Of a DNA stretch of 64,000 nucleotides, positions 1,646 to 59,809 are shown piece after piece; within the stretch, counting starts at the first letter, position 1; each line of letters begins with the position of its first letter. A program made the position numbers and the translations under genes. The stretch covers positions 1-64,000 of the forward strand of contig JAGYWI010000011.1 in assembly GCA_018606805.1 (NCBI GenBank), written 5' to 3'. This DNA is from Candidatus Magnetomicrobium cryptolimnococcus. GTDB taxonomy: Bacteria; Nitrospirota; Thermodesulfovibrionia; Thermodesulfovibrionales; Magnetobacteriaceae. The notes beneath the pieces are model-generated. The model did not search any database. It had not been told where the DNA came from and saw only the letters and a list, made by a program, of their open reading frames with translations.

Positions 1646-1651
1646 GACATT

Positions 1652-3259: not shown

Positions 3260-3286
3260 AAATATATTATTTTCATAAACAATATT

Positions 3287-4432
3287 TTATTTCTTTTTAG
3301 AGTAATTTTGCATAGTAATTGCTATTACTAATAAAATCCAATAAATCTGTGAACCAACAGCAGATGCCCAAAGAAACCAGTCTGTAACACCCAAAACGGC
3401 AAAGACAAAGAATATATAAGCAACATCCCCACTGGCCGTACGCTCTAAGAATACAAGGAGTTTTGAATTTTCTTGTATTTTTTTATTTGTTACAAAGATT
3501 AACAGTAATACTGTTGTAATTACAGCACCAAATACTAATAATCCTGTTGCCAATAAATAATTGTGTTCAGGTCCAGCCCTATACAAACCAATCCCAAGCC
3601 CAACAAACACGGCAATATATACAACAACATCGCCAAATATGTCCAAGTACTTACCAAATTCAGTTTGGCTAAATGTCATACGTGCTACTGCCCCATCGCA
3701 ATAGTCTAGAAAACGTGAGATTATTAAAAGGAACGAACCTCCAAGTACCCACAGATACCCTATATTGGCTATCATTAAAGCCCCTATGAAACCTACCAAA
3801 ATAGAGGCGGTTGTTATCATATTAGGAGACAACCCAAGGTGTGCCAAAATCAAACTTATAGGGTTTGTAAAACGTCTTCGTGTAAAACGTGGGAAGTTCG
3901 ACTCTCGTTGATGACTTCCTATTGCTTGCATTATCTGTTTTTCTATATCTTTAGCTATAGCTTTGTTTGTAACATGTACACAAAATTTTTGAGGAGGAAG
4001 CTCTATTTTTTCTTTAATGTTACTAAATAGTAGTTCAGTTAAATCTAAAGGGGTTGATAAGCCCATAAACATATTTTTTAGATAACCCGATGATACAATA
4101 CTTAAACCTACGCCTGTATTGCCTAAGCCATTGTGGTTATTTATAATTTCAGATAACCCTTCCCCTGATAAAACCATGTCACCATAGATACATAACCATA
4201 TATCTACTTGATTAAGACTGTCTGTGTTTTCTTTGATATTTGATAGGGTTGTTGTTGAGATATGTTCACTATGCGCTATAGAGTCTAAGTTAGGATTATA
4301 TTTTTGTTCACAAAATACCCACAAAATAGGACCATATAGTCCTTCTTTTTTCATTTGTTTAGTTAACCGTAACGGAATAACTTGCCCACATACGTTTAAC
4401 GATTCAACGTGTTTTGGAACTAAAATAATCAA
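3287..4432 (-). CDS. CDP-alcohol phosphatidyltransferase-like membrane protein with N-terminal extra domain
   Basis: The 381-residue protein has a complete CDP-alcohol phosphatidyltransferase signature, D-x2-DG-x2-AR-x8-G-x3-D-x3-D, from Asp243 to Asp268, with hydrophobic segments around it. Residues 1-180 look like a degenerate nucleotidyltransferase-type domain (IYGDMVLSG near 82-90), an arrangement reminiscent of bifunctional inositol-phosphate enzymes. With PEP mutase and the decarboxylase downstream, the likely job is moving a CMP-activated phosphonate head group onto a lipid or glycan alcohol at the membrane (inference). The first conventional start is a TTG at 4432 with no good ribosome site. 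An AGGAG at 4463-4467 instead sits 6 nt before an in-frame ATA at 4454-4456, which would add eight residues. Confidence 0.82.
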   Translation of the reverse strand: MIILVPKHVESLNVCGQVIPLRLTKQMKKEGLYGPILWVFCEQKYNPNLDSIAHSEHISTTTLSNIKENTDSLNQVDIWLCIYGDMVLSGEGLSEIINNHNGLGNTGVGLSIVSSGYLKNMFMGLSTPLDLTELLFSNIKEKIELPPQKFCVHVTNKAIAKDIEKQIMQAIGSHQRESNFPRFTRRRFTNPISLILAHLGLSPNMITTASILVGFIGALMIANIGYLWVLGGSFLLIISRFLDYCDGAVARMTFSQTEFGKYLDIFGDVVVYIAVFVGLGIGLYRAGPEHNYLLATGLLVFGAVITTVLLLIFVTNKKIQENSKLLVFLERTASGDVAYIFFVFAVLGVTDWFLWASAVGSQIYWILLVIAITMQNYSKKK

Positions 4433-17109: not shown

Positions 17110-17781
17110 TTGAATCGATATTTATCTCATAAATTATTATTAAGTAATCCAGTTTATGGAAATATAAGTAAAGATATTGGCATAGGAGCTATAAAGTCAA
17201 TAGATAAGGGAGATGCATGTCAGACTTTCTGGATAAGAATGGAAAATCATTGGGGAACACATGTTGACTGTCCTGCTCATTTTTTTCTTGATGGCAAAAA
17301 TGTATGTGATTACGATTGTGATTTTTGGTTTTTTAAAAACCCTCAAGTGATAAAAATTATAGCTAAACCTGGTCAGATAATTACAATTGAACATATAAAG
17401 GATAGGATAGATATAGATACCGACATTATTCTTTTTGTATCAGGTTGGGAAAATTTTAGGGGACAGAATATTTATAGTTTAAACAATCCGGGTCTACATC
17501 CAGATATAGCTCTGTGGTTACGACAAAGCTATCCGAGTGTTCGCGCAGTAGGTATTGATTGGATATCTATATCAGCTTTTCAGCAAAAAGAAATTGGTAG
17601 GCTTGCTCACAAAGCATTTTTAAACCCATACTCAGAGGGGCACCCTGTGTTGCTTATAGAAGATATGAAACTATCTGGTGATATTTCATATCTTGAAGGA
17701 TTATTTGTTTCACCAATATTAATTGATAAAATTGATAGTGCGCCATGTACCGTTGTTGGTATTTTTAAGGATTATCAATGA
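17110..17781 (+). CDS. Cyclase/kynurenine formamidase-like metal-dependent hydrolase
   Basis: A 223-residue protein of the cyclase (KynB-like) family, with the metal-binding HWGTHVDCPAH (47-57; HxGTHxDxPxH) and a C-terminal LSGDISYLEGL region typical of the fold. Members are Zn/Mn amidohydrolases, or cyclases in polyketide and small-molecule pathways. The TTG start follows AAAAGG. It is the last gene before a 517-bp regulatory gap. In this setting it may remove an N-formyl or other amide from a sugar intermediate, but nothing in the sequence proves the substrate. Confidence 0.78.
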   Translation: MNRYLSHKLLLSNPVYGNISKDIGIGAIKSIDKGDACQTFWIRMENHWGTHVDCPAHFFLDGKNVCDYDCDFWFFKNPQVIKIIAKPGQIITIEHIKDRIDIDTDIILFVSGWENFRGQNIYSLNNPGLHPDIALWLRQSYPSVRAVGIDWISISAFQQKEIGRLAHKAFLNPYSEGHPVLLIEDMKLSGDISYLEGLFVSPILIDKIDSAPCTVVGIFKDYQ

Positions 17782-20861: not shown

Positions 20862-23255
20862 ATGAATCCTAATAAAAAAAAGGCAATTATTTTAGGAGCT
20901 GGACCGAGCGGGCTTATTGCTGCATGGAAACTTCTTGAGAATGGCTGGGCTGTAGAAGTATATGAGAAGAACAATATGGTTGGTGGTATGTGTCGTACAT
21001 GGAAATGGGATGACTTCCTTGTAGATACAGGTCCACATATTTATCATACGCCTGATATTGAATTGGCTAAGTTTTGGGAAAAGAACTTTGGTGATCTGTT
21101 TATTAAAGGTGAATTTTGGTGTAAAAATGTTAAAGGAAAAAACTTTGATGAATATTGGGATTATCCTTTGTCTTGGGAGAGTATATCTCGCTATCCTAAA
21201 CAGTTAAAGGAGACAATTCTTGGAGAGATCAAGTCATTATCTTTTGAAAAAAAAGCTAAGGCACGAAATTATACTGAATACATAGAAGCCCAGGTAGGAC
21301 CTACTTTAAGGAATATGTTTTTTGAGAAATACCCAAAAAAAATATGGGGAATTTCCACTGATGATATGGCTCCAGACTGGGCACCTAAAAGAATACAGTT
21401 TCGTCAAAAGGTTACACCATTTTATCATAATCAATGGAATGCAGTTGCGAAATATGGTACAGGTTGTATTTTTGAACGTATAAGGGAAAAGATTTTAAAG
21501 CTCGGAGGCATAATATATTTAAATCATACTGTAAATGATATTATATATAGTGATAAAAATATAGACAAAATCATTTTTTCTGATAAAGAACCATTAGTGG
21601 TTAATAATAAAGATATAATAATTTCATGCCTGCCTATTAATATATTATCTTATTATCTTGGTTATGAAAGCAAACTGCAATTTAGAGGGATAAGGTCTGT
21701 ATATCTTGCATATGACCAGAGAGAAATTTTACCAAAGGATATTCATTGGTTGTATTATGACTCTGAAGAGGTTCTCTTTAACCGCATTACTGAAGCAAAA
21801 AAATTATCTGTATATATGTCACCTATAGAAAAAACTTATTTAACTGCTGAAATAACTTATTCTAAAGGTGATGAGATAGATACAATGGATAATGAAATAT
21901 TAACGCAGATAGTTGCCGAACAGATTGAAATAGTTGGATTAATAAACAGGAATAAATTAATAAATATCGATACAAACAAAGAAGATTTTGTATATCCTTT
22001 ACAATACAAAGGTTATCAGGAAGAACTTGCAAAGACCCGTTCTGTCATACGTCAATTTCAACAATTATACTCAATAGGCACAGGGGGAGATTTTAACTAT
22101 GCAGATAGCCAAATATTATTTCACAAAGCATTTGACACAGTTGCAATCTTATGTGGCAAAGACTCTTCCTATACACAGGTTATTAGGCAAGTCCCTTCAG
22201 GTAAGCTAAATAATCATGTACGTATTAACAATAGAACTATTGGGGACGGACAGCGCTCATATATAATAGCAGAAGCAGGTCTAAACCATAATGGGAGTAT
22301 TAGTATTGCAAAGCAGTTAATTGATGAGGCTGTAAATGTAGGTTGTGATGCAATTAAGTTTCAGACATTCAAGGCATCAGGCAGGATTTCAAAAAAAGTT
22401 AAAGCTGTCAGATATGCAGAAACAGTAAACGGCTTAGAAGAAACCCTGTTTGATATGTTTGATAGGCTTGCATTACCTTTTAGCAAACAAAAAGAGATTT
22501 TTGAATATGGTAAGGAAAGAAAAATAGAGGTTTTTTCCACACCTTTTGATTTCGAGAGTGTTGATTTTCTAGAATTCATAGGAGTGAATATTTATAAAAT
22601 TGCCTCTATGGACTTAGTCAATTTACCTCTTATCAGATATGTAGCTAAAACCGGTAAACCGATGATTATTTCCACTGGCATGTCTACCTTTGGTCAGATT
22701 GAGGAGGCAGTAGAAACTGTAGTAAAAGAGAATAATCAAAACTTGATGCTCCTTCATTGTAATTCTTCGTACCCTGCAGCACCTGAAGATATGAATCTAA
22801 ATGTTATGAAGTCTCTTAAAAAATATTTCAACGTACCTGTTGGTCTTTCTGATCATACTTTTGGTTTGTTTGTATCACACACTGCCATAGCATTGGGTGC
22901 TGATTTAATAGAGCGGCATTTTACGTTAGACAGGAGCTTTGAAGGTCCTGATCATATATTATCCTCTGAGCCTGAAGAGTTTGCTGAATTAATATCTATT
23001 TCTAAAAGAATTCCTCTTATACTTGGCGGTGGTATGAAGCGAATCCAACCTAATGAATATGATACCTTAAATACGCAGCGAAAAAGTATTTACTCTATTT
23101 GTAATATTAAAGCTGGTCAAGTTGTTACAAAGGATATGGTAACAGTAAAAGGACCAGGTGGTGGGCTTTTGCCTAAGTATATGGATATAGTTATTGGAAG
23201 AAAAGCTACAAAAGATATAGAGGAAGATTATCCGATTACATGGGATGTTATTTAG
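20862..23255 (+). CDS. Fusion of an FAD-dependent oxidoreductase/mutase-like domain with a NeuB-type synthase
   Basis: One uninterrupted 797-codon frame. Residues 1-445 are a flavoprotein: the FAD-binding LGAGPSGLIAAWKLLENG (11-28), VGGMCRTW (40-47), and a C-terminal YSIGTGGDFNYADS as in protoporphyrinogen-oxidase or UDP-galactopyranose-mutase relatives. Residues 465-797 are a complete NeuB synthase (IAEAGLNHNG, DAIKFQTF, LSDHTFG, IERHFTLDR) with its antifreeze-like SAF domain at the end. The NeuB half condenses PEP with an amino-hexose-type aldose. The flavin half presumably acts on the same precursor or product. This fusion is unusual to me. No frameshift or repeat suggests an artefact. No clear ribosome site precedes the ATG. 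Confidence 0.85.
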   Translation: MNPNKKKAIILGAGPSGLIAAWKLLENGWAVEVYEKNNMVGGMCRTWKWDDFLVDTGPHIYHTPDIELAKFWEKNFGDLFIKGEFWCKNVKGKNFDEYWDYPLSWESISRYPKQLKETILGEIKSLSFEKKAKARNYTEYIEAQVGPTLRNMFFEKYPKKIWGISTDDMAPDWAPKRIQFRQKVTPFYHNQWNAVAKYGTGCIFERIREKILKLGGIIYLNHTVNDIIYSDKNIDKIIFSDKEPLVVNNKDIIISCLPINILSYYLGYESKLQFRGIRSVYLAYDQREILPKDIHWLYYDSEEVLFNRITEAKKLSVYMSPIEKTYLTAEITYSKGDEIDTMDNEILTQIVAEQIEIVGLINRNKLINIDTNKEDFVYPLQYKGYQEELAKTRSVIRQFQQLYSIGTGGDFNYADSQILFHKAFDTVAILCGKDSSYTQVIRQVPSGKLNNHVRINNRTIGDGQRSYIIAEAGLNHNGSISIAKQLIDEAVNVGCDAIKFQTFKASGRISKKVKAVRYAETVNGLEETLFDMFDRLALPFSKQKEIFEYGKERKIEVFSTPFDFESVDFLEFIGVNIYKIASMDLVNLPLIRYVAKTGKPMIISTGMSTFGQIEEAVETVVKENNQNLMLLHCNSSYPAAPEDMNLNVMKSLKKYFNVPVGLSDHTFGLFVSHTAIALGADLIERHFTLDRSFEGPDHILSSEPEEFAELISISKRIPLILGGGMKRIQPNEYDTLNTQRKSIYSICNIKAGQVVTKDMVTVKGPGGGLLPKYMDIVIGRKATKDIEEDYPITWDVI

Positions 23256-24325: not shown

Positions 24326-26113
24326 ATGATAAACTATGAACAGTTGATTCCAGAAAATGGTTATGTTATTGCTGAAATTGCTAATGGACATGATGGTAAT
24401 CTCGAAAGACTTAAACTGTTAATTGATTGTGTAGCAGATAGTTCCACTAAGCTTATTAAGTTTCAAATATTTACGAAAGAAGAGCGTTCTGTAAAAGGTG
24501 ATAAGACGTGGGATATTTTTAGCAGGTTAGAGTTAAATAGAACTCAATGGTTTTATGCAGTTGATTATGCTCGAGAAAAAGGACTCTATATTATTTCTGA
24601 CGTGTATGGAAAAACAAGTTTCAATTTGGCAAAAGAATTAAAAGTCGATGGATTTAAAATACATTCTGAAGACCTACTGAATAGTTATTTTATTGCTCAA
24701 GTAGCAGAGGAAAAAAAAATAATATTTATCAGTATTGGTGGGGCACACCGATTAGAAATATGCAACCTCTTAAACTTTCTTAAAAGCAAAGGCTTGTTGG
24801 ATAAAGTTGTATTAATGACTGGTGTGCAGACTTTTCCAACTTCTTTAGAAGCACATTTTTTAGAAGAAATAAGCGATATTATCAATAAATATTCACACTA
24901 TGGAGTGAAGGTTGGTTTTTCAGATCATATTGCTGGTGATATGGAAGAAGCTAAGATTGCACCATTAATGGCATTAGCTAAAGGTGCTTGTATAATAGAA
25001 AAACATGTTACGATAAGCAGGGATGATAAGTGGACTGACTATCATTCCTCTCTTAACAAGGATGAGTTTTATGAATTTGTAAAAAGAGTGCAGAAATTGG
25101 CACCTCTACTGTGTCCAATTGGGCAGATGAGTAAGGATGAGATAAAATACAGAAAAATGTTTAAAAAGAGCCCTGTTTTTACAAGAGATATTAATGAGGA
25201 TTATATTTTAACTCCAAATGATATTGAGTATAGAAAAGATACTTTGAATGCTGTTCCAATTGCAAGTTTGGCACTTGTTGATAAGCCACTACTTCATTAT
25301 ACAAAAGAAGGGCAAATTTGTAGGTTTTCAAATATAAAGATTAAAATTGGAGGGATTATTGTTGCTAGGTGTACCTCGACTCGTTTGCCAAACAAAGCAA
25401 CCCGTAAAATTGCAGGAAAAGAAACTATTGCTCTTGTAATTAATCGAATGAAGAGGTGTAAAAAAGTAGATTGTGTCATATTAGCCACATCAACAGATCC
25501 CTCTGATGATATATTGGTTGAAATTGCACAGAGAGAAGGTGTGTATTCTTTCCGTGGTTCTTTAGAGAATGTAGCGCTAAGATATTTAGAGGCTTCTAAA
25601 TATTTTGCTATAGATCATTTTGTAAGGGTAACAGGGGATGCTCTTTTATGTGATGAGGTAATGGTAGATAAAGCAATTGAAAGTCACTTGTATCATTCCT
25701 GTGATGTTACTTTTATGAAAAACATGCCTTTTGGGACTCATAAAGAGATTGCTTCCATCAATGCACTGCAGACGATTGTGGAAAAAGCAGAGCAACCTAA
25801 TAACACAGAATATTTAGAATATTTTTTGGAAAATGATCGCTACTTTAGTGTTAATTATGTTGAAGCTGATTATGAATTTGATCCTCAACTTAGATTGACT
25901 TTAGATTATGAGGAAGATCTTCAACTTTTCGATAAAATATACACACACTTTTTTGAAATAGGCAATCCTAAGTTCTCCCTAAAAGAAGCGCTATGCTGGC
26001 TTGGAAAAAATCCTGATATAGCAAGTATTAATAAAAATATGATGCAGAAATTTGATTTACATCAAACCCGTAATTTTTTTAGTAGAAAATTAAATGTACA
26101 GTTAATGATATAA
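24326..26113 (+). CDS. Fusion of a NeuB-like synthase with an SpsF-type cytidylyltransferase
   Basis: A 595-residue bifunctional protein. Residues 1-335 are a divergent NeuB (IAEIANGHDGN 15-25, LIKFQIF 43-49, GFSDH 197-201, IEKHVTISRDD 224-234) with a short SAF-like end. Residues 341-580 are an SpsF-type nucleotidyltransferase (IIVARCTSTRLPNKA 344-358, VTGDALLCD, and a C-terminal RLTLDYEEDLQLFDKIY). The protein would make a 2-keto-3-deoxy acid sugar from PEP and activate it with CTP. The same two activities occur as adjacent separate genes at 44492 and 45538, supporting their functional link. The substrate aldose is unknown. The start follows AGAGATAGGAT. Confidence 0.85.
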   Translation: MINYEQLIPENGYVIAEIANGHDGNLERLKLLIDCVADSSTKLIKFQIFTKEERSVKGDKTWDIFSRLELNRTQWFYAVDYAREKGLYIISDVYGKTSFNLAKELKVDGFKIHSEDLLNSYFIAQVAEEKKIIFISIGGAHRLEICNLLNFLKSKGLLDKVVLMTGVQTFPTSLEAHFLEEISDIINKYSHYGVKVGFSDHIAGDMEEAKIAPLMALAKGACIIEKHVTISRDDKWTDYHSSLNKDEFYEFVKRVQKLAPLLCPIGQMSKDEIKYRKMFKKSPVFTRDINEDYILTPNDIEYRKDTLNAVPIASLALVDKPLLHYTKEGQICRFSNIKIKIGGIIVARCTSTRLPNKATRKIAGKETIALVINRMKRCKKVDCVILATSTDPSDDILVEIAQREGVYSFRGSLENVALRYLEASKYFAIDHFVRVTGDALLCDEVMVDKAIESHLYHSCDVTFMKNMPFGTHKEIASINALQTIVEKAEQPNNTEYLEYFLENDRYFSVNYVEADYEFDPQLRLTLDYEEDLQLFDKIYTHFFEIGNPKFSLKEALCWLGKNPDIASINKNMMQKFDLHQTRNFFSRKLNVQLMI

Positions 26114-48097: not shown

Positions 48098-48136
48098 AGA
48101 AAAATATCCTTATTGGCAATAAATTTGTGCGGTAAT

Positions 48137-49162
48137 ATGAAAATAGTGCAAAAAAATACAATATTTTCTCCTCCATATTTTGACCCATATTCATTTGATT
48201 ATATTTACAATTTTAATCATGCGCCTAACCTTGTCAAATTAAATGCTGATAGTTATTTAGCGGCATGGTTTTCTGGACCATGGGAAGGCCATCCCTGGCA
48301 GATGATATTATCGTCAGTATTTTCAAAAGGTAGATGGACAGAGGCAAAGGTCTTACAGAACACTCATAGGGTGTCTGACTACGATCCTTCTTTCCTTAAA
48401 ACACACAATAAGGTGTTTTTTTTCTATTCAAATGCTCGTTGGTATGAAAGTAAGCTATATGGAGAAAATCGTGGGTTCTTAGGGACATATTTTAAGTATT
48501 CTGAAGATTATGGGGTAAATTGGTCAGAATCTAGTCTTTTGTGTGACCAATTTGCATGTAAATCAAATGGGATATCTCTTCAAAGTGGTGCTTTGCTCTT
48601 ACCGGTATACAATCCACTAACTAATCAAGTTGGTGTTTATAAGTCTATAAACAATGGACTGTCTTGGGAATTGAGGTTGGTGCCGTTTCCTTGTATTGAT
48701 GTTGCAGAACCTGCTATTGTAGAACTGGGAAATAGTCATATTTTAATGTGTATTAGGACTAAAACGGGTAGTATATGGCAATCAGAATCGTTAGATGAGG
48801 GCAACAGTTGGGTTACTCCTTATCCTCTAAAAGTAGAATCATACAATTCACCTGTATGCTTACTTAGTTATAACAACGTTTTGTTATTGTGCTACAATCC
48901 AGGAAAAAGAAGAGATAAACTGTGTATAATAGAATCAACAAAACCATATTATGATTGGGCTTATAGATTAATAATTGATGCTATAGATGACCAGCGGACT
49001 ATATGTTTTCAACCCATTCATCCTTCTGGAATAGATAGAGCAGTTTCCTATCCATCCATAATATTGGTTGATAATAATATAGCTATGTTATCCTGGTCAA
49101 AATACAGTATAAATGAAACCGAGCATAAGGGTGAAATCCATTGTTGTTGGATTGAATTATAA
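48137..49162 (+). CDS. Sialidase-fold (BNR/Asp-box) protein without signal peptide
   Basis: A 341-residue beta-propeller protein. Asp-box-like repeats occur as SEDYGVNWSES, SINNGLSWEL and SLDEGNSWVT. The region AEPAIVEL and the late SYPSIILVDNN fit exo-sialidase-like enzymes. There is no signal peptide or membrane segment, so it should act in the cytoplasm. ATG 48137 is favoured over a TTG at 48113. Possibilities are hydrolysis of a nonulosonate glycoside or nucleotide, an editing role, or a lyase-type reaction. A degradative role would be strange in a biosynthetic operon. Confidence 0.72.
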   Translation: MKIVQKNTIFSPPYFDPYSFDYIYNFNHAPNLVKLNADSYLAAWFSGPWEGHPWQMILSSVFSKGRWTEAKVLQNTHRVSDYDPSFLKTHNKVFFFYSNARWYESKLYGENRGFLGTYFKYSEDYGVNWSESSLLCDQFACKSNGISLQSGALLLPVYNPLTNQVGVYKSINNGLSWELRLVPFPCIDVAEPAIVELGNSHILMCIRTKTGSIWQSESLDEGNSWVTPYPLKVESYNSPVCLLSYNNVLLLCYNPGKRRDKLCIIESTKPYYDWAYRLIIDAIDDQRTICFQPIHPSGIDRAVSYPSIILVDNNIAMLSWSKYSINETEHKGEIHCCWIEL

Positions 49163-50301: not shown

Positions 50302-51444
50302 ATGAATAAAAAAATGGTAGCTATGATACCAGTTAGATTGGGTAGTAAACGTATACCCAAAAAAAATCTGAGATTATTAGATGGAAAACCATTAATCGCC
50401 TACATAATCGAATCAGCTATATCTTCAAACATATTTGATAATATATATATCAATTCAGAGGCAAATATTTTTAAGGAAATAGCAGATAGTTATAAAATCA
50501 AATTTTATAATAGACCACAAATCCTGTCCTCTGATAGTGCAACCAATGATGAGTTTGCCTTAGATTTCATTAACAACGTAGAATGTGATATCCTAATACA
50601 ATTGTTGTCCACATCGCCTTTTTTAACTCCTAATGATATAAGGTTTTTTGTTAAAAGGATGCTGGATGAACAATATGAGACCTTAATATCTGTAAAGAAT
50701 GAGCAGATAGAATGTATTTATGACGGTAAACCTATTAACTTTGTTCAGAAAGACAAGACACTGCCATCACAAATGCTTAGGCCAGTGCAGCCATATACAT
50801 GTGGCATTATGGGATGGGATGTAAAAAGATTTCAGGATAATATGCGTAAGTTTGGTGCCGCTTATCATGGGGGGGAAGGTACTATAGGATTCTATATTTT
50901 AAAAGGATTTTCCACTAATGATATTGACATCGAGGAAGATTTTAGATTAGCTGAGGCAATTATTCGGATGCAAAAATCAAAAATGAGACCAGCAGAGTTC
51001 TATATAGCGGAAAAGGAGAGAAATATACATTCAGAAGTTGATGTGCATATGATTTTAAAAAAGGATGGGGTAGAACATATAGAATTGTTTGAAAATATTA
51101 ATATTCCCCTTTCAAATATAGATAAAATTATTAATGGAATGCCACAAGGTATTTCTTGGAGTCAGCGTATTATTAATACTGCAAGCAATAGTGCAACATT
51201 GGTTTGTCAGTTACCTGGTGAAGGAAATAGATTGCATTATCATAAGGATTGGAACGAATGGTGGTATATTGTTGATGGCGAGTGGGAATGGGAAATAGAA
51301 GATGAGAAAATTATCGTCAAAAAAGGCGATGTGGTATTTATAGAAAAGGGGAAGATGCATAAAATAACAGCAATTGGTGAAAAAGCTGCTATAAGGTTAG
51401 CTGTTAGTCGAGAAGATGTGGCTCATATATATCCACAAATATAA
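50302..51444 (+). CDS. CMP-nonulosonate synthetase (NeuA/LegF-like) fused to a cupin
   Basis: A 380-residue fusion. Residues 1-225 are a CMP-sugar synthetase (IPVRLGSKRIPKKNLRLLDG 9-28; LSSDSATNDEF, LLSTSPFLTPNDI, IDIEEDFRLAEA). Residues about 255-380 are a cupin with LHYHKDWNEWWYIVDGEW (about 311-328), whose His and Glu could bind metal. The cupin might isomerise or epimerise the sugar or regulate. The gene would activate the neuB product with CTP. A G7 run at 50869-50875 is notable in such AT-rich DNA. AAAGGATGAAG precedes the ATG. Confidence 0.83.
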   Translation: MNKKMVAMIPVRLGSKRIPKKNLRLLDGKPLIAYIIESAISSNIFDNIYINSEANIFKEIADSYKIKFYNRPQILSSDSATNDEFALDFINNVECDILIQLLSTSPFLTPNDIRFFVKRMLDEQYETLISVKNEQIECIYDGKPINFVQKDKTLPSQMLRPVQPYTCGIMGWDVKRFQDNMRKFGAAYHGGEGTIGFYILKGFSTNDIDIEEDFRLAEAIIRMQKSKMRPAEFYIAEKERNIHSEVDVHMILKKDGVEHIELFENINIPLSNIDKIINGMPQGISWSQRIINTASNSATLVCQLPGEGNRLHYHKDWNEWWYIVDGEWEWEIEDEKIIVKKGDVVFIEKGKMHKITAIGEKAAIRLAVSREDVAHIYPQI

Positions 51445-51523: not shown

Positions 51524-52651
51524 ATGAAAACTGTTTTTAATATAAAGATTGATTTTGAAAAAAGTCATGGTTCTTATGTATATGATAAAAATTCGCAAGA
51601 TGAGTTTCTAGATTTTTTTGGAATCTTTTCTTCTTTGCCTATTGGTTATAACCATGCAATATTTAATAAAACATTTGAAGAAAAGATAATTAAAGTATCA
51701 AAACTTAGAATGGCAAATAATCTATTTCAATCAGATGAACTTATCAATTTTGTAGAAAAATTGAGACCATATGTTTTCTCACAATATATACATTTCTCAT
51801 GTACTGGAGCTTTGGCAGTGGAATCGGCTATTAAATGTGCTATGGAATACAAGAAGGTTAAAAATCCAATGGTTTTAGCATTAAAAAAGGGGTTTCATGG
51901 CATTAATAGCTGGGGGTTTATTACAGACAGGTATTTAGGTACTGCAGATAGGATTATTAATTTTCCTAATAATAATTGGAAAAACTTAGATATTAAAGAA
52001 GTGATACAATATATAAAAAATAATGATACTAAAGATGTTGTTGCTGTAGTAATTGAGCCAATACAATGTACAGCTGGTGATATATATCTTAATGTTGATG
52101 CATTATTAGAATTACAACAAATATGTATAGATAATGATATATGTTTCATTGTTGATGAAATTCAAACAGGATTTGGAGTAACTGGCGCTATGTGGTATTC
52201 AGAAAAAATAGGAATTAACCCTGATGTGCTTGTTTTTGGAAAAAAATCCCAGATATGCGGAATTGTAGCTAAAGAAAAATATAACGCCTGTATGGTAAGC
52301 CCATTACGAAAATTAGAAGTAACTTTTGATGGGGAATTAATAGATGCTATAAGATCAATGTATATAATAAAGGCATATGAAAAATATGATTTAATAAATA
52401 AGGTTAATAGCAATAACCTTCGCTTTATGAATATTCTACAGGACAGAGTATTACATTATCGAAGTGTTGGACATCTTATTGCCTTTGATTTTAGTGATAG
52501 CTACAAAAGGGATGAGTTTGTTAAAAGGTGTTATGAAAACAGATTATTATCTAATCCTACAGCAGAAAAAAGTGTTAGACTTAGGCCAAATCTGGCTATT
52601 TCTGATGAAGAAATAGAACGTTTTAAAGAAATAATAGACATTATTCTATAG
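51524..52651 (+). CDS. Class III PLP aminotransferase (lysine 6-aminotransferase-like)
   Basis: A 375-residue class III (omega) aminotransferase with FSCTGALAVESAIKCAMEY, FHGINSWGF, FIVDEIQTGFG and the PLP Lys in VFGKKSQICGI (Lys 240 or 241). VFGKKxQxCGI matches lysine 6-aminotransferases. In this cassette it probably aminates a keto sugar, cyclitol or aldehyde rather than lysine. It leads a string of genes ending in the GmhA-like isomerase. The only other true aminotransferase seen in the window is legC. Confidence 0.82.
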   Translation: MKTVFNIKIDFEKSHGSYVYDKNSQDEFLDFFGIFSSLPIGYNHAIFNKTFEEKIIKVSKLRMANNLFQSDELINFVEKLRPYVFSQYIHFSCTGALAVESAIKCAMEYKKVKNPMVLALKKGFHGINSWGFITDRYLGTADRIINFPNNNWKNLDIKEVIQYIKNNDTKDVVAVVIEPIQCTAGDIYLNVDALLELQQICIDNDICFIVDEIQTGFGVTGAMWYSEKIGINPDVLVFGKKSQICGIVAKEKYNACMVSPLRKLEVTFDGELIDAIRSMYIIKAYEKYDLINKVNSNNLRFMNILQDRVLHYRSVGHLIAFDFSDSYKRDEFVKRCYENRLLSNPTAEKSVRLRPNLAISDEEIERFKEIIDIIL

Positions 52652-52667
52652 GAAAATACAATCAGGT

Positions 52668-53408
52668 ATGAATATTAGTTTTTATGATAAGAAAATATTG
52701 ATTACAGGTGGAACAAGGGGTATTGGCGCTAATTTATGTGAGGCTTTTTTATCAGAAGGGGCTTTTGTTTATGCCACTGGAACAGATAAAGAGCATATAA
52801 GAGATTTAAACGAATCTAAGAAAACACAAATCAAATATTTATATCTTGATTTTTCATCATTAGCATCTGTTAATGAGTGTTTAGAAGATTTGAGTAAACT
52901 TGATAGAATAGATGTACTTATTAATAATGCAGGAGTTAATAAAATCAATTATATAGAAAATGTTGAGTATGAAGATTGGGACTGGATAAATAATGTCAAC
53001 CTTAAAGGTCCTTTTCTCTTGACCAAGACCATTGTACCTAAGATGAAGGTTCAAAAATCGGGTAAAATTATTAATATTGCGTCTATATTTGGTGTAGTTA
53101 GCAAAGTAAAGAGATCTGTTTATTCAACAACAAAATGGGGCTTGATTGGGTTTACAAAGGCAATGGCTTTAGAGCTTGCTCCTTATAATATTTTAGTTAA
53201 TGCACTATCCCCTGGATTTGTTGATACAGAGCTTACAAGAAAAATACTTAGCAGTGATGAGATTGAGGTGCTAAGGCAGCATATCCCCCAAAAAAGGCTT
53301 GCCAGTTGTGATGAAATCACGAAAACTGTACTCTTTCTTGCAAGTGACCATAACACCTATATAACTGGCCAGAATATTATTATAGACGGTGGATTTACAA
53401 GCTTATAA
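52668..53408 (+). CDS. Short-chain dehydrogenase/reductase (FabG-like)
   Basis: A 246-residue classical SDR with GGTRGIGANL (13-22), NNAGVNK, NIASIFG and YSTTKWG (Tyr and Lys of the active site), and YITGQNIIIDGGF. The build is that of 3-keto-reductases. In this neighbourhood it likely oxidises or reduces a sugar or cyclitol hydroxyl. Its stop precedes the cyclase start at 53416 by 7 bp. No defect is visible. Confidence 0.8.
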   Translation: MNISFYDKKILITGGTRGIGANLCEAFLSEGAFVYATGTDKEHIRDLNESKKTQIKYLYLDFSSLASVNECLEDLSKLDRIDVLINNAGVNKINYIENVEYEDWDWINNVNLKGPFLLTKTIVPKMKVQKSGKIINIASIFGVVSKVKRSVYSTTKWGLIGFTKAMALELAPYNILVNALSPGFVDTELTRKILSSDEIEVLRQHIPQKRLASCDEITKTVLFLASDHNTYITGQNIIIDGGFTSL

Positions 53409-53415
53409 TAGATAT

Positions 53416-54498
53416 ATGGGTAATTTTATAGTTAAATCTATAGTTAGTGATTATGAAGTTAATTTCATAAACAACACAAAGCAGACATTGGATGAGGAAT
53501 TAAATGATGCTGATGTTGTTATCATTGATAATATAGTCAAAGACTTATATCCTGATATTTTAAATATAAAATTGAAAAACAATTTGACTATAGGTATTGA
53601 CGCAAGAGAAACTACGAAAAGTTATCAGGGACTTATTCCTATAATAGAAAAACTTATTGCATCTGGTTTTCGTAAAAATCACAGGCTTATAGGGATTGGA
53701 GGTGGTATTACTCAAGATATTACAGCATTTATATCATCAATTATATACCGCGGTGTATCATGGTTTTTTTTCCCTACAACGCTCTTAGCACAAGGTGACA
53801 GTTGCATTGGTAGTAAAACCTCCATTAACTTTGGAGAATATAAAAACCAAATTGGGGGTTTTTATCCTCCAAACAAGGTTTTTATTGATCTAAACTTTCT
53901 TAATTCTTTGTCAGAGGCTGATCTAAAATCTGGGCTTGGGGAAATGTGCCATTATTTTATAGTGGCAGGTGAGGAGGATTTTAATAGATTTAAGAATGAA
54001 TATACTTTGGTGCTAAAGGATAAAGAGCTATTGAGTGGTCTCATTACAAGAAGTTTAGAAATCAAGAAAAGCTATGTAGAGATTGATGAATTTGATAAGA
54101 ATGAAAGGCAGGTATTTAATTACGGTCATTCATTCGGGCATGCTATAGAGACATTGACTGATTATGCAATTCCTCATGGAATTGCTGTAAGTTATGGTAT
54201 GGATATAGCAAACTTTATATCTGTTAAGCTAAACTATTTGACTGAAGATATTAGATATGAAATCAGGCAATTGCTTGAACAAATTTGGGATGGGTATAAT
54301 ATAAAAAACATCTCTGTTGAAAAATTTAAAAATGCGCTTAGTAAGGATAAGAAGAATGTTGGTAAGGAACTTCGATTAATACTGTGTAAAGGTTATGGGA
54401 AGGTATTCAAGGCAGGTATGCAGATGAATAAAGAGTTTATAGGATGGTTAGAGGAATATTTGATAAGCAGCTTAAATAAAGTGGTGGATAAATTATAA
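53416..54498 (+). CDS. AroB-fold sugar-phosphate cyclase (dehydroquinate synthase-like)
   Basis: A 360-residue member of the sugar phosphate cyclase superfamily: GIGGGITQDITAFISSIIYR (about 92-111), FPTTLLAQGDSCIGSKTSIN, YKNQIGGFYPP, and metal-ligand regions SGLGEM and NYGHSFGHAIE (about 234-244). In dehydroquinate synthase the loop reads GGGVxGDxxGF. Here TQD with F following suggests a non-shikimate substrate. Nearby aminotransferase, SDR and Gfo/Idh genes fit a cyclitol (C7N-like) route, with sedoheptulose 7-phosphate also being the GmhA substrate. ATG 53416 is chosen over GTG 53389, which overlaps the SDR. Confidence 0.8.
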   Translation: MGNFIVKSIVSDYEVNFINNTKQTLDEELNDADVVIIDNIVKDLYPDILNIKLKNNLTIGIDARETTKSYQGLIPIIEKLIASGFRKNHRLIGIGGGITQDITAFISSIIYRGVSWFFFPTTLLAQGDSCIGSKTSINFGEYKNQIGGFYPPNKVFIDLNFLNSLSEADLKSGLGEMCHYFIVAGEEDFNRFKNEYTLVLKDKELLSGLITRSLEIKKSYVEIDEFDKNERQVFNYGHSFGHAIETLTDYAIPHGIAVSYGMDIANFISVKLNYLTEDIRYEIRQLLEQIWDGYNIKNISVEKFKNALSKDKKNVGKELRLILCKGYGKVFKAGMQMNKEFIGWLEEYLISSLNKVVDKL

Positions 54499-54518
54499 AG
54501 TTTAATAGAGGAATAAAG

Positions 54519-55331
54519 TTGAAAATTTGGAAAAACACTGCCACTCTTGAAGGTTACGATGAGGGGCTTATTTTTACTGATAATAAGAGTGAGGCTGATA
54601 TTGTATTGATAGGTAGTAAAACTATTAGCCTGGAGGAATTTTCAAACCTTAAGGGTATTTTCCGGGCTGGCATTGGTAAGGACAACATACCCCTTGAACG
54701 AGCCCAAGCAATGGGGCTTGTAGTGCATTTTCCATCTAAAGAAACTATTGACATCATCTATGAAGAAACTGCTAATTTTACCTGTGGATTGATCTTCAGA
54801 ATGCTTTATAGTGAAGTTGGGACTATAGAACCTTGGCTAAAGCGTGATCGTATGCAGTTAGCTGAAAAAGTGCTTGTTGTGATTGGTAAAGGAAATATTG
54901 GTAGCAAAGTGGCTGAAAAAATGAGCAATTTTATGCTGGTTAAAACTTATGACGTTTTGCATAATTCAGAAATAGAGTTGAAATATATGCTCTCAATAGC
55001 TGATTGTATTACCTTGCACATTCCAAAAAGTAAGGATAACTTAAAATTCATAGATAGGCAGAAGCTTTCTTGGATGAAGGATGGCGCAGTTGTGGTCAAT
55101 ACTGCCAGAGGGGCTATTATAGATGAAGAGGCTCTTTATATGGAACTTTTAAACGATCGTCTTCGCGCTGCATTTGATGTTTACTGGCATGAACCCTATT
55201 ATGGAAAGTTAAAGGAGTTTTATCCTTCCAGATTTTATATGACACCGCACGTAGCAAGTACTTGTAAAGGGTTTATACAAGGCTGCAGGCATGATCTTGA
55301 TAATCTCATAAGGGAGCTTAGCTATGCATAA
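54519..55331 (+). CDS. D-2-hydroxyacid dehydrogenase family protein
   Basis: A 270-residue NAD-dependent dehydrogenase with VVIGKGNIGSKVAEKM (about 119-134), NTARGAIIDEEAL (Arg), a catalytic Glu region and TPHVAST (His). It is shorter than usual (about 310-330) because the N-terminal domain is small. TTG start with GAGGAA 8 bp upstream. It overlaps the next gene by 8 bp. It probably reduces a 2-keto acid or oxidises a hydroxy acid group in the same pathway as the cyclase. Confidence 0.78.
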   Translation: MKIWKNTATLEGYDEGLIFTDNKSEADIVLIGSKTISLEEFSNLKGIFRAGIGKDNIPLERAQAMGLVVHFPSKETIDIIYEETANFTCGLIFRMLYSEVGTIEPWLKRDRMQLAEKVLVVIGKGNIGSKVAEKMSNFMLVKTYDVLHNSEIELKYMLSIADCITLHIPKSKDNLKFIDRQKLSWMKDGAVVVNTARGAIIDEEALYMELLNDRLRAAFDVYWHEPYYGKLKEFYPSRFYMTPHVASTCKGFIQGCRHDLDNLIRELSYA

Positions 55332-56310
55332 GGTTGGTATTATTGGATATGGGAAAATGGGAAGGATTCGCTATCAAGAGATATATAAAAGTGGTAGGGC
55401 CGAGATAGTGTCAGTGTTTGATCCACATTGCGTTGACTTGGAAATACACAGTGCAAATAGTGCTAATGAGATCATTAATAACCCATGTATTGATGCCATT
55501 TTTATCTGTACACCAAATTATTTAAATAAGCCATTGACAATACAGGGGCTTAAGGAAGGAAAACATGTCTTCTGTGAAAAACCTCCAGCGTTTACTGCTT
55601 TAGATATTAAAGAAATACGAGATATAGAGAAATATTCAGGAAAGGTTCTAATGTATGGATTTAATCATCGACATCACGAGAGCATTAAGCATATGAAGAG
55701 ATTGATTGATGAGCAAGAATACGGACGTGTGTTGTGGATGCGGGGACGTTATGGTAAAAGCGTAGATAATTCCTTTTATAATAATTGGCGTGCAAATATA
55801 GAAATGGCTGGTGGCGGAATACTTATTGATCAGGGGATTCACATGCTTGACCTTTTTCTTTACCTTGGCGGTGACTTTGACTCTGTACATGCTTCTGTTT
55901 CTAACCTTTACTGGAATTTGAGCGTAGAGGACAATGTCTTTGCCACCTTGGAAAATACAAAAACTGAAATGGCAGCATCACTTCATTCCACAATGACACA
56001 GTGGCGGCATCTGTTTTCGTTAGAAATTTTTTTAGAAAAAGGCTATCTTGTGCTAAATGGTCTTAAAACTTCTTCAAACACATATGGTGATGAAGTTCTC
56101 TCTATAGCAAAAAACCGCACCACTGCCCCTGCTGCCACATGGGAAGATGAAGAACACATAACATATCATATTGATGAATCATGGAAGTCAGAAATAAACG
56201 AGTTTTTTACAGCAATTGAGGACAACAGGGGTGTAAAAACTGGGAACTCTGGTGATGCCCTTAAACTAATGCATATTGTTGACAAGATTTATTCATATAG
56301 AAAAAAATAA
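55324..56310 (+). CDS. Gfo/Idh/MocA-family oxidoreductase
   Basis: A 328-residue protein with GYGKMGRIRYQEIY (8-21), FCEKPPAFTAL (about 85-95) with the family Lys, and GGGILIDQGIHMLDLFLYLG with Asp and His. It belongs to the inositol/glucose-type dehydrogenases, which fits a cyclitol or sugar 3-oxidation. It overlaps the upstream dehydrogenase, and is followed by the GmhA-like isomerase after 19 bp. Confidence 0.8.
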   Translation: MHKVGIIGYGKMGRIRYQEIYKSGRAEIVSVFDPHCVDLEIHSANSANEIINNPCIDAIFICTPNYLNKPLTIQGLKEGKHVFCEKPPAFTALDIKEIRDIEKYSGKVLMYGFNHRHHESIKHMKRLIDEQEYGRVLWMRGRYGKSVDNSFYNNWRANIEMAGGGILIDQGIHMLDLFLYLGGDFDSVHASVSNLYWNLSVEDNVFATLENTKTEMAASLHSTMTQWRHLFSLEIFLEKGYLVLNGLKTSSNTYGDEVLSIAKNRTTAPAATWEDEEHITYHIDESWKSEINEFFTAIEDNRGVKTGNSGDALKLMHIVDKIYSYRKK

Positions 56311-56329
56311 TACTTATAAGGTAAGAGTT

Positions 56330-56890
56330 ATGGATGATAAAGGATTTATAAAGGATTATATAGAACGATATAGACAATCTTTATTTGAAACTGATGTGTC
56401 CGAACAACTAATTTATATGAAAGAACTTTTAATAGACTTAAAAAAGCAAGACAATAAAGTTATTATAGCTGGCAATGGAGGCAGTGCTGCAATAGCAAGC
56501 CATGTGGCTGTTGATTTTACCAAGCAGGCTGGCATTAGAGCGGTAAATTTTAATGAAGCCGATCTCATTACCTGTTTTGCTAACGATTACGGATACGAAC
56601 ACTGGGTGGCAAAGGCTGTTGAGTTTTATGGTGATAAAGGTGATGTGGTTATATTGATAAGCTCAAGTGGCCAGTCAAAAAACATGATAAATGGAGCAGT
56701 GAAAGCAAAGGGGCTTGATATGAAGGTTATTACTTTTACGGGATTTAACAAGAACAATCCTCTTAAGATGGTAGGTGATTATAGTTTCTGGGTTGATAGT
56801 CGCGCCTATAATATTGTAGAAAACACTCATCAAGTATGGTTACTTATGCTATGTGATTTGATTATAGGTAAGGCAGAATATTCTGCATAG
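56330..56890 (+). CDS. gmhA: GmhA-like sedoheptulose-7-phosphate isomerase (SIS domain)
   Basis: A 186-residue SIS-domain protein: IIAGNGGSAAIASHVAVDF, then ANDYGYEHW, ISSSGQSKNMI and NTHQVWLLM. The GNGGSA and SSSGxSxN motifs bind the sugar phosphate. It would turn sedoheptulose 7-phosphate into D-glycero-D-manno-heptose 7-phosphate, feeding the HddA- and HddC-like enzymes far upstream. ATG 56330 (MDDKGF, behind AAGGTAAGAG) is preferred to a start at 56276 inside the previous gene. Another ketose isomerase is possible. Confidence 0.8.
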   Translation: MDDKGFIKDYIERYRQSLFETDVSEQLIYMKELLIDLKKQDNKVIIAGNGGSAAIASHVAVDFTKQAGIRAVNFNEADLITCFANDYGYEHWVAKAVEFYGDKGDVVILISSSGQSKNMINGAVKAKGLDMKVITFTGFNKNNPLKMVGDYSFWVDSRAYNIVENTHQVWLLMLCDLIIGKAEYSA

Positions 56891-56902: not shown

Positions 56903-57655
56903 ATGTTTAAAACAGCTTTTCTTATAACAGCTCGTCTTAAGTCAACTAGGCTTCCTAAAAAAATTATACTTGAGGTGAAAGGCAAGCCTTTAATTGTTCA
57001 TATGATTGATAGGATAAAGAGGGCTATACATATCGATAAGATCGTAATCTGCACCTCTATCAATCCACAAGATAACCTTTTGGAGGATATTGCAAATAAG
57101 GAAGCAGTATACTGTTATAGGGGTAGTGAAAATGATGTATTAGAGAGGTTGCTAAGGGCTGCAAATAATCATGGGCTTGACTACTTTGCCAATATAACTG
57201 CTGATTGCCCAATGATTGATCCTTTATTGATAGATAAGGCTATTGAGGAATATGAAAAGACGAATGCAGATTTAGTAAAATATGACGATCAAAACAATGA
57301 TGTGCCTTTTAATTGCTATGTTATAAAAGTAACAGCCTTAAAAAAAATCTGTGAATTAAAGACTGAAACAGATACAGAATGTTGGCTTAATTATTTTAAA
57401 TCGAGTGGTAAGTTTAGAATTCACGAAATTCCTATGGAAAACCAATACAAACATGCTGCACTAAAAACATCGCTTGATTATCCAGAAGATTATGAATTTA
57501 TGAAAAAAGTATTTAATGTTTTATATGAATCCAACAAGTATTTTTCTTTACTTGACATCATAAATCTTGTTAACAATTGTCCTGATATTCTTGCTATCAA
57601 CTCTAATCCTGATTTATTAAAAAGGTGGAGAAAACACCAGATTTTCAATACATAA
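56903..57655 (+). CDS. SpsF-type cytidylyltransferase (third SpsF domain)
   Basis: A 250-residue nucleotidyltransferase closely similar in build to that at 45538: ITARLKSTRLPKKIILEVKG (7-26), ICTSINPQDNL, NITADCPMIDPLLID, and KTSLDYPEDYEFMKKVF. It has no adjacent NeuB, so either it activates the product of one of the other synthases or of the cyclitol cassette. Intact. Confidence 0.82.
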   Translation: MFKTAFLITARLKSTRLPKKIILEVKGKPLIVHMIDRIKRAIHIDKIVICTSINPQDNLLEDIANKEAVYCYRGSENDVLERLLRAANNHGLDYFANITADCPMIDPLLIDKAIEEYEKTNADLVKYDDQNNDVPFNCYVIKVTALKKICELKTETDTECWLNYFKSSGKFRIHEIPMENQYKHAALKTSLDYPEDYEFMKKVFNVLYESNKYFSLLDIINLVNNCPDILAINSNPDLLKRWRKHQIFNT

Positions 57656-57724: not shown

Positions 57725-59809
57725 ATGAAAAAAAATTATGTTAATAAATCACTATACTATAATTTATATATTGAAAGATTGTCTTTATTCAATGTCATAA
57801 CCCATTTATTACCGTTGCTGCTAAAAAATAATAAGCTTAATTGTTATTATATCGATATTACAAATGAAGCACTTAAAACTATATCATTTTTAAAGCATTT
57901 TTTTAAATTCCGATGTGAAGAACTTAAGTTCAAATTGATAGATTTGCGTGATGGTCCTAATTCAGATTCTTATAGATATCAAGTTCCATCAATAGATTTG
58001 TTTAAGGTTCGTCAGATGATTTCTAATAGTAATTTATACCAGTCTTTTTGTCATAAGAAGTATAATACACACAGGTTTCCTGAATATTTACTTCAAGCAA
58101 TTTCTAACAAGCATATGATTGACGACTGGAGAGCCCCTTATAAAGCCATTATGATTATTAAAATTGTTAATTGGCATATGAAAAAGCATAATATTTTACG
58201 GAGTGTATTAGTGCTAAGACTACGTCCCTATATAGATGTTATAATTCAATACGCTCAAGAACAAAAATTTAGTATTAATATAAAATCCAACCATGCATGG
58301 TTGCCCTATATTTTAAAACTAAAAAATGAGATAAAGAGATTCCCATGGTTAATTTTACTGGTCAAAAAAATAATATTTTTTTATCGTACAAAACAATGGG
58401 TCTCCAACGCGTGGTATAGAGAAAACAAATCAGTAACTCAATCATTTGTAGCTTCTGTTGGAAGAGGACATTTTCATTTTGAAAATGATGGATTAAATAC
58501 GGATGCGTTTTTTTGTTTTCAATCAAAACTAAATCCTCGTAAGATTATTTTTCCATTGACAGCTTCACTTCCACAAGAGGTGCTCGAGAAATTGTTTTCA
58601 AAAGGATTCCAACCGATAAATGTTTATTATGCTTATAATGCTAATTTACCTGTATTTATTGGACCAAAGCAACTATATGTGCGTAAATCTTTTCCATCTA
58701 TTATTAATAATAAAAAATCTTTTCCAGAAATATTTTCTGCCCGCTGTTGTATGAATGAGTACAACTATAGATATAGTTTTTGGAGAGAATTTTTTACTAA
58801 TAATGCAGTTAAGGTTTACTTGAGTTGGTATAGGTATGATGAAGATCATATTGCCATAGGTGATGCTATTCAAGAAACTGGCGGAATTATGGCAATGTGG
58901 CAGCTAGCGTTAGATGTTTTGCCTTCAATTGGAATGTCTATTTTCACAGATGTTTATTTTGCTTTTTCCACTTGGGGAAAAAACATTGAGAATCAGATGG
59001 GATCAAAAATATCCTATTATGTTGCAACTGGATTTACAAAAGATTATGTTGCTCCTATGTTGAGAAGTCTTGCCTTGCAAAAGAGAAAAGAACTGCAGTC
59101 ACATGGTGCAGAGAAAATCATCACAGTATATTGTGAAAATTCTTGTAGCGATGAAAGATGGAATTATGGTCATGACCTGCAGAGACAAAATTATTATTTC
59201 ATATTAGAAGAAGTGCTTAAAAAACCATGGTTAGGTGTAATATTTAAACCAAAAGCCCCTCAGACTTTAAGGAAAAGGCTCGGAGATATAAATATGTTAT
59301 TGGAAGAGGCAGAAAAGACTGGACGATGCTATGTATATGAAGATGTAAGTGTAAATGGATGTGCAAGTCCTTCGGCAATACCCCCTATTTTAGCTGCATT
59401 GTCGGCTGATATTGTTATTCATCCCCACTTATCTGCCGGCACCTGTGGATTTGAAAGTGCTTTGGAAGGCATTCCAGCAGTAATGATAGATAGAGAAGGT
59501 TATAAGAGCAGCCCTCTGTATCAACTGGGTATAGGAAACGTGGTCTTTCCTGATTGGCCATCATGTTTGGCAGCAATTTTTGAGGATTGGAATTCAACAA
59601 ATAAAAATCCATATTTTGGTTATTGGTCCCCACTGCTTAATGACCTTGATAATTTTCGTGATCGAAGAGCTGCAGAAAGAATGGGGAATTATATACATTG
59701 GATGTTAGAAGGATTTGACCATGGATTTGACCGCGACACTGTTTTGGCTAATACAGCCGAGAGGTATTGTAAAAAATGGGGATATGATAAGATTGTTTCT
59801 ATTCCTTAG
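57725..59809 (+). CDS. Large unrecognised protein, possibly a GT-B glycosyltransferase
   Basis: I do not recognise this 694-residue soluble protein. It has no signal peptide or membrane segments. The C-terminal third is best conserved in appearance: GVIFKPKAPQTLRKRL, then HPHLSAGTCGFESALEG at about 566-582, followed by VMIDREG and FPDW. A late glycine/glutamate-rich segment protecting a donor phosphate is typical of GT-B enzymes of CDP-glycerol- or capsule-type. A short hydrophobic run FPWLILLVKKIIFFY near 205-219 could touch the membrane. A glycosyltransferase is a guess from fold hints and context. Confidence 0.5.
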   Translation: MKKNYVNKSLYYNLYIERLSLFNVITHLLPLLLKNNKLNCYYIDITNEALKTISFLKHFFKFRCEELKFKLIDLRDGPNSDSYRYQVPSIDLFKVRQMISNSNLYQSFCHKKYNTHRFPEYLLQAISNKHMIDDWRAPYKAIMIIKIVNWHMKKHNILRSVLVLRLRPYIDVIIQYAQEQKFSINIKSNHAWLPYILKLKNEIKRFPWLILLVKKIIFFYRTKQWVSNAWYRENKSVTQSFVASVGRGHFHFENDGLNTDAFFCFQSKLNPRKIIFPLTASLPQEVLEKLFSKGFQPINVYYAYNANLPVFIGPKQLYVRKSFPSIINNKKSFPEIFSARCCMNEYNYRYSFWREFFTNNAVKVYLSWYRYDEDHIAIGDAIQETGGIMAMWQLALDVLPSIGMSIFTDVYFAFSTWGKNIENQMGSKISYYVATGFTKDYVAPMLRSLALQKRKELQSHGAEKIITVYCENSCSDERWNYGHDLQRQNYYFILEEVLKKPWLGVIFKPKAPQTLRKRLGDINMLLEEAEKTGRCYVYEDVSVNGCASPSAIPPILAALSADIVIHPHLSAGTCGFESALEGIPAVMIDREGYKSSPLYQLGIGNVVFPDWPSCLAAIFEDWNSTNKNPYFGYWSPLLNDLDNFRDRRAAERMGNYIHWMLEGFDHGFDRDTVLANTAERYCKKWGYDKIVSIP

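Follow-up and report, generated by a model that had tools for sequence, protein, structure and literature searches.

What does a cyclase of the AroB fold make inside a bacterial glycan locus? The question arises from a 64,000-nucleotide stretch of the genome of Candidatus Magnetomicrobium cryptolimnococcus (contig JAGYWI010000011.1, positions 1 to 64,000; hereafter the window). Six open reading frames (ORFs), all on the + strand and with operon-like spacing, occupy positions 51524-56890 and encode, in order, a class III aminotransferase, a short-chain dehydrogenase/reductase (SDR), an AroB-like cyclase, a D-2-hydroxyacid dehydrogenase family protein (HADH), a Gfo/Idh oxidoreductase and a GmhA-like SIS isomerase. 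Our ORF calls and the Pfam matches (Aminotran_3, adh_short, DHQ_synthase with DHQS_C, 2-Hacid_dh_C, GFO_IDH_MocA and SIS_2) agree with an earlier reading of the same DNA, the original prediction, in grouping, families and coordinates. That prediction had envisaged sedoheptulose 7-phosphate (S7P) as the source of a C7N aminocyclitol. The explanation that we favour instead, at a probability of about 0.5, is a dedicated pathway cassette, spread by horizontal transfer, whose product is an unusual acidic building block for a glycan, formed by a carbocyclisation of the 3-dehydroquinate synthase (DHQS) type and probably CMP-activated.

The cyclase belongs to a family of its own

The cyclase (53416..54498) scored 440.9 bits against NCBIfam TIGR04425, above the curated cut-off of 400, and is therefore a member of this family. 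NCBIfam describes TIGR04425 as an 'AroB-related putative sugar phosphate phospholyase (cyclizing)', a hypothetical equivalog with no substrate assigned. Against the aroB equivalog the score was 262.9 bits, below the cut-off of 305. The GGGITQD motif, which the original prediction had singled out as atypical, is present and, judged by its distribution, is a signature of the cyclase's own family: GGGI.QD occurs in 74 of 79 family members and in 0 of 25 other cyclases, a frequency inflated by the retrieval, in which one pattern included the GGGI[IT]Q stretch.

The loci compared are the best 80 of 183 matches from one scan of genome contigs; many are contigs of metagenome-assembled genomes, some incomplete at their ends. 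Their carriers belong to Bacteroidota, Fidelibacterota, Spirochaetota, Cloacimonadota, Fibrobacterota, Pseudomonadota, Bacillota, Cyanobacteriota and other phyla, and the closest identity to the window cyclase among them is 71%. The family is sporadic: 2 of 100 relatives and 5 of the 396 genomes from the phylum have a protein that exceeds its cut-off. Plasmid and phage collections yielded only ordinary AroB and other cyclases, which served as references.

The trees further included DHQS from plasmids and related genomes, annotated S7P cyclases, ValA (4p53), 5tpr, the 2-deoxy-scyllo-inosose synthase (DOIS) 2d2x, whose sequence was matched at 100%, ebo-type cyclases, and two Streptomyces paralogues adjoining DAHP synthase or DHQ dehydratase, labelled aDHQS-like by context only. 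In a quick tree a single branch (SH-aLRT 99) set all 79 family members apart from the other cyclases, and in a smaller, more careful tree all 18 grouped together with a support of 100/100. Forcing the window cyclase to a place inside the DHQS and aDHQS-like rows cost 145 log-likelihood units and was rejected by the approximately unbiased (AU) test (p = 7.6e-8). The genome, which amounts to 3.59 Mb in 91 contigs and is 98.5% complete, also carries a second, better-scoring DHQ-synthase gene at C16:16002-16937, which groups with the DHQS of related genomes. The suspicion in the original prediction that the window cyclase is not the shikimate enzyme was thus borne out by the aroB score, the tree and the presence of another aroB; neither half of the outcome named there as a refutation, grouping with DHQS and the lack of another aroB, was observed. 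Because the nearest tree neighbours of the window cyclase come from other phyla, while the remaining Nitrospirota members are placed elsewhere, the phylogeny points to horizontal spread of the cyclase gene.

Active-site residues predict a DAHP-like substrate

We checked 13 catalytic positions, numbered as in the A. nidulans enzyme and mapped through E. coli AroB. Twelve of them (R130, D146, K152, N162, E194, K250, R264, N268, H271, H275, H287 and K356) are identical to DHQS in 79/79 members. The sole variable position, 197, carries Lys in 47 members and His in the other 32, and corresponds to His188 in the window cyclase, whereas the two aDHQS-like proteins have Arg. From DHQS structures, we take residue 197 to lie near C4 of the substrate.

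The other cyclases depart from DHQS at just these positions. 2-epi-5-epi-valiolone synthase (EEVS) and 2-epi-valiolone synthase (EVS) have other residues at 250, 268, 275 and 356 and are variable at 264, while DOIS differs at 264, 268 and 356, where every one of the 79 TIGR04425 members has R, N and K. Arg264 is kept in those compared enzymes whose substrate bears a carboxylate, and is missing from DOIS and most S7P cyclases. The S. aureus residues corresponding to the retained positions are listed as the pocket for 3-deoxy-D-arabino-heptulosonate 7-phosphate (DAHP) (PMC6262012). Since the DAHP-pocket residues K250, R264, N268, H275 and K356 are kept in the whole family, the substrate of the cyclase is predicted to be DAHP-like and not S7P. 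The pattern of S7P cyclases of the EEVS, EVS and DDGS types (M250, D/A268, P275 and non-Lys 356) was found in 0/79 members. On these pocket residues the idea of an S7P cyclase was rejected, and the C7N aminocyclitol chemistry proposed earlier lacks support. An AlphaFold2 model of the cyclase (pLDDT 89.7) matched DHQS best in the PDB (TM ~0.85), followed by DOIS, with ValA lower; the modelled match confirms the fold and says nothing on the substrate.

The original prediction had connected the GmhA-like protein with the cyclase through S7P, the substrate of GmhA. This protein reached 98.2 bits against gmhA, whose cut-off is 209, and in the alignment the Glu position of GmhA is occupied by Asp while the His is kept, both residues being catalytic in GmhA. 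By reasoning, a supply of substrate to the cyclase by GmhA would not fit, in that an aldoheptose would need a seven-membered ring closure.

The cyclase lies in a cassette conserved across phyla

To compare neighbourhoods, we called the ORFs ourselves and clustered them with BLAST and the Louvain method. The loci fall into two types that are never combined: in type A, 45 loci carry a Gfo/Idh oxidoreductase, and in type B, 21 loci carry a thiamine pyrophosphate (TPP) enzyme. An SDR gene lies immediately upstream of the cyclase in 68/77 loci. Type A loci contain SDR (42 of 45), SIS (38), HADH (36), the anomerase-like YhcH (20) and an HpcH aldolase (19). A CMP-ulosonate synthetase is present in 37 of the 45, as NeuA in 28 and KdsB in 9, with the two together in none, and it accompanies HpcH in 18 of the 19 type A loci with this aldolase. 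By contrast, 12 canonical AroB neighbourhoods of related genomes had no SDR, HADH, Gfo/Idh, SIS or NeuA partner. As up to 80 loci show the partners around a homologous cyclase, and those 12 do not, the grouping is not due to chance. The cyclase belongs to a dedicated glycan cassette, in agreement with the original proposal of a cassette inside the glycan locus. The partner set, together with the residue pattern, was not found in the searchable literature, nor, as far as this could be searched, was any paper naming TIGR04425 or a DHQS homologue in such a setting.

In the window, the aminotransferase (51524..52651, Aminotran_3 181 bits) is followed by the SDR (52668..53408) and the cyclase, whose ORF is open from GTG 53389 and whose homologues favour the start at ATG 53416. 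The HADH (54519..55331, 2-Hacid_dh_C 102 bits), the Gfo/Idh/MocA oxidoreductase (55324..56310) and the SIS isomerase (56330..56890, ORF open from TTG 56276) come next. With the homologue-supported starts at 53416 and 56330, the ORFs overlap by only a few bases. The catalytic motifs are intact, namely YSTTK in the SDR, GKGNIG and the R/E/H triad in the HADH, EKP and GGGILIDQGIH in the Gfo/Idh protein, and the lysine of the aminotransferase. The Gfo/Idh protein is 60-72% identical to its counterparts in many type A loci across phyla.

The unit extends beyond these six genes, upstream to a + strand gene whose product joins a NeuA-like cytidylyltransferase to a cupin domain (50302..51444, CTP_transf_3 and Cupin_2) and past the right edge of the window to HpcH and KdsB genes. 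Homologues of the NeuA-cupin protein (48-56% identical) adjoin the cassette in L024, L036, L037, L038, L045, L066 and L075, and it is the probable CMP-activating enzyme. That YhcH and the NeuA-fused cupin strictly substitute for each other was rejected, both being present in L038, L049 and L051. The sole HpcH/HpaI gene of the genome lies on the same contig, 3.3 kb beyond the window end (C8:67287-68054), and its product is 61% identical to the HpcH of the cassette L058. It is followed by a KdsB gene (C8:68047-68829) that passes the kdsB cut-offs, an epimerase and a HAD phosphatase; another kdsB, a candidate for the housekeeping gene, is on C27. The combination of HpcH, KdsB and cyclase also occurs in L058, L060, L061, L070, L073, L043 and L053.

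The aminotransferase adjoins the cassette in the window as had been noted, but is not a constant partner. Since its homologue appears in just 2/84 loci (L036 and L075), an amino group would be a local, optional variant. Directly downstream of the SIS gene is an SpsF-type cytidylyltransferase (56903..57655, + strand, CTP_transf_3 94 bits), with a 57% homologue in L066 only. A PF04199 (KynB-like) hydrolase at 17110..17781 (+ strand), 43% identical to a gene adjoining the cassette in L036, is a distant possible member.

Among the 21 type B loci, an HpcH-like protein (HpcH270) is found in 15 and NeuB in 3, never together, and a CMP-synthetase in 1. These loci (L076-L101), in which the cyclase occurs with an acetolactate-synthase-like TPP enzyme, HpcH-like or NeuB proteins and genes for CDP-dideoxyhexose, represent a second and unexplained use of it. 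In Ruminococcus flavefaciens (L093:10107-10818), inspection by eye shows the cyclase directly followed by a pair of small membrane proteins resembling EmrE/ArnE-ArnF, possibly a flippase for a lipid-linked product.

Proposed pathway and alternatives

In the favoured pathway, the cyclase would act by transient oxidation, phosphate elimination and ring closure, as in DHQS, on a carboxylate-bearing 3-deoxy-ulosonic acid 7-phosphate of the DAHP type, probably altered near C4. This substrate could come from the cellular DAHP pool, or from HpcH (NeuB in some loci) joining pyruvate to a tetrose phosphate. The SDR probably reduces the carbocyclic ketone product; HADH, Gfo/Idh and SIS would adjust substrate or product, and in the window locus the aminotransferase may add an amine. 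In type A, a NeuA- or KdsB-type enzyme would then attach CMP for transfer into a surface glycan. The sequences show the gene content and its conservation, the separate clade, the DHQS-like pocket and the linkage to genes for pyruvate aldolases and CMP-synthetases; from homology and context we infer the substrate, the order of steps and the final structure. DHQS-type cyclisation of a DAHP-like acid is preferred because most partner enzymes act on keto or hydroxy acids: the pyruvate aldolase or NeuB, HADH, the CMP-ulosonate synthetase, the anomerase-like YhcH and the cyclase itself with its DAHP pocket.

If HpcH acts ahead of the cyclase, a quinate-like carba-ulosonate would result; if it acts later, it would extend an aldehyde that already bears the ring by three carbons. 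A narrower version of the pathway seems to us unlikely. In it, a pyruvate aldolase (or NeuB) and the cyclase would convert a DAHP-like acid to a ring resembling quinate, in effect a 3-deoxy-ulosonic acid with a carbon ring, and a NeuA or KdsB relative would activate this as a CMP-carba-ulosonic acid for surface glycans in many phyla.

Several points weigh against the favoured pathway. HpcH may belong to a later step than the cyclase, or to another sugar pathway altogether. The sialic-acid-anomerase-like YhcH in 20/45 type A loci suggests an anomeric centre, which a pure carbocycle does not have; its presence is more in keeping with an activated sugar that is a true hemiketal. The GmhA-like isomerase is left without an explained role. 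The loci counted share ancestry, so that Fisher p-values are descriptive only, and the AU test did not reject a union of the TIGR04425 clade with DHQS (p = 0.31) or with EEVS (p = 0.14). We also found no biochemistry for any member of the family.

The foremost alternative, in itself unlikely, is that two separate pathways adjoin, with the cyclase set making, for example, a quinate-like acid or cyclitol and HpcH with KdsB or NeuA supplying the same glycan with an ordinary ulosonic acid. Several genes for NeuB and cytidylyltransferases are present in the window in any case, YhcH suits a normal ulosonic acid, and the type B loci combine a TPP enzyme and an aldolase with a CMP-synthetase in just one case. 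The association of one type of CMP-synthetase with the cyclase in 37/45 type A loci from many phyla, with HpcH alongside in 18/19, is what speaks for a single pathway.

A second DHQS that makes ordinary 3-dehydroquinate, for a quinate- or shikimate-type decoration or as a backup of the shikimate pathway, is more doubtful. The nearly full DHQS residue set and the DHQS folds nearest to the model would suit such an enzyme, but the score below the aroB cut-off, the rejected placement in DHQS, the His that replaces K197 in 32/79 members, the constant glycan context and the canonical AroB elsewhere argue against it. Least probable is the C7N aminocyclitol, which an EEVS-like cyclase would form from S7P and for which the GmhA-like isomerase and the aminotransferase would be core enzymes, since the frequency of the former (38/45 type A loci), the position of the latter in the window and the unrejected grouping with EEVS are outweighed by the missing S7P-cyclase residues, the rarity of the aminotransferase and the SIS score far under the gmhA cut-off.

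Neighbouring genes

The window also holds genes for sialic-acid-like sugars adjoining the cyclase set. Within 20862-57655 there are four synthase domains of the NeuB type and as many as four cytidylyltransferase domains of the NeuA/SpsF type, suggesting several different ulosonic acids. A single ORF at 20862-23255 combines an FAD-dependent amine-oxidase/UGM-like domain with a NeuB domain, and the protein encoded at 24326-26113 unites NeuB with a KdsB/SpsF-like cytidylyltransferase, that is, a synthase with CMP-activation. A BNR-repeat (sialidase-like) protein is encoded within the ulosonic acid locus at 48113-49162. The 694-aa protein of 57725-59809 has no Pfam or NCBIfam match; its 39% homologue lies in the cassette locus L066 beside the SpsF2 homologue.

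By eye, genes on the - strand at 485-4432 (phosphonopyruvate decarboxylase-like, a phosphoenolpyruvate mutase-nucleotidyltransferase fusion and a CDP-alcohol transferase) resemble those for phosphonate decoration of a glycan or lipid. Beyond the window, a row of FkbH-like, MaoC-like, FabG-like and acetyltransferase genes, also seen by eye (L122:13423-17507, C8 ~74.9-79.0 kb), is perhaps an acyl decoration set.

Comparison with known systems

Carbocyclic sugars are rarely reported in bacterial surface glycans. TIGR04425 is a named family without a function. From the partner set and the DHQS-like pocket, a specific role can now be proposed for it that is open to experiment, and they suggest that many bacteria use ring formation of the AroB type in the synthesis of such glycans. 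If this is true, a class of glycan building blocks would have been overlooked, and TIGR04425 genes labelled 3-dehydroquinate synthase would be misnamed.

The window cyclase is above the curated cut-off of TIGR04425 and shares one clade with all retrieved homologues. With shikimate AroB it has in common the fold and 12 of the 13 checked positions, but it differs in its separate clade, the GGGI.QD and DSCIGSK signatures, the His at 197 and the glycan context. EEVS and DOIS belong to the same superfamily and share the metal and NAD sites and a non-shikimate role; EEVS lacks the pocket residues at 250, 268, 275, 356 and mostly 264, and DOIS those at 264, 268 and 356, whereas TIGR04425 keeps them all.

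In the aminoshikimate pathway to 3-amino-5-hydroxybenzoic acid (AHBA), aminoDHQS is a DHQS paralogue that acts on a modified DAHP, accompanied by oxidoreductase and isomerisation steps. Position 197 is altered there too, to Arg in the two aDHQS-like sequences; no AHBA synthase context was seen here, and the locus is instead one for glycans with CMP-ulosonate synthetases. Finally, the pathways to Kdo and nonulosonic acids share with the cassette the SIS isomerase, the aldolase or NeuB, NeuA or KdsB, and the YhcH anomerase-like protein, to which the cassette adds a DHQS-type cyclase, SDR, HADH and Gfo/Idh.

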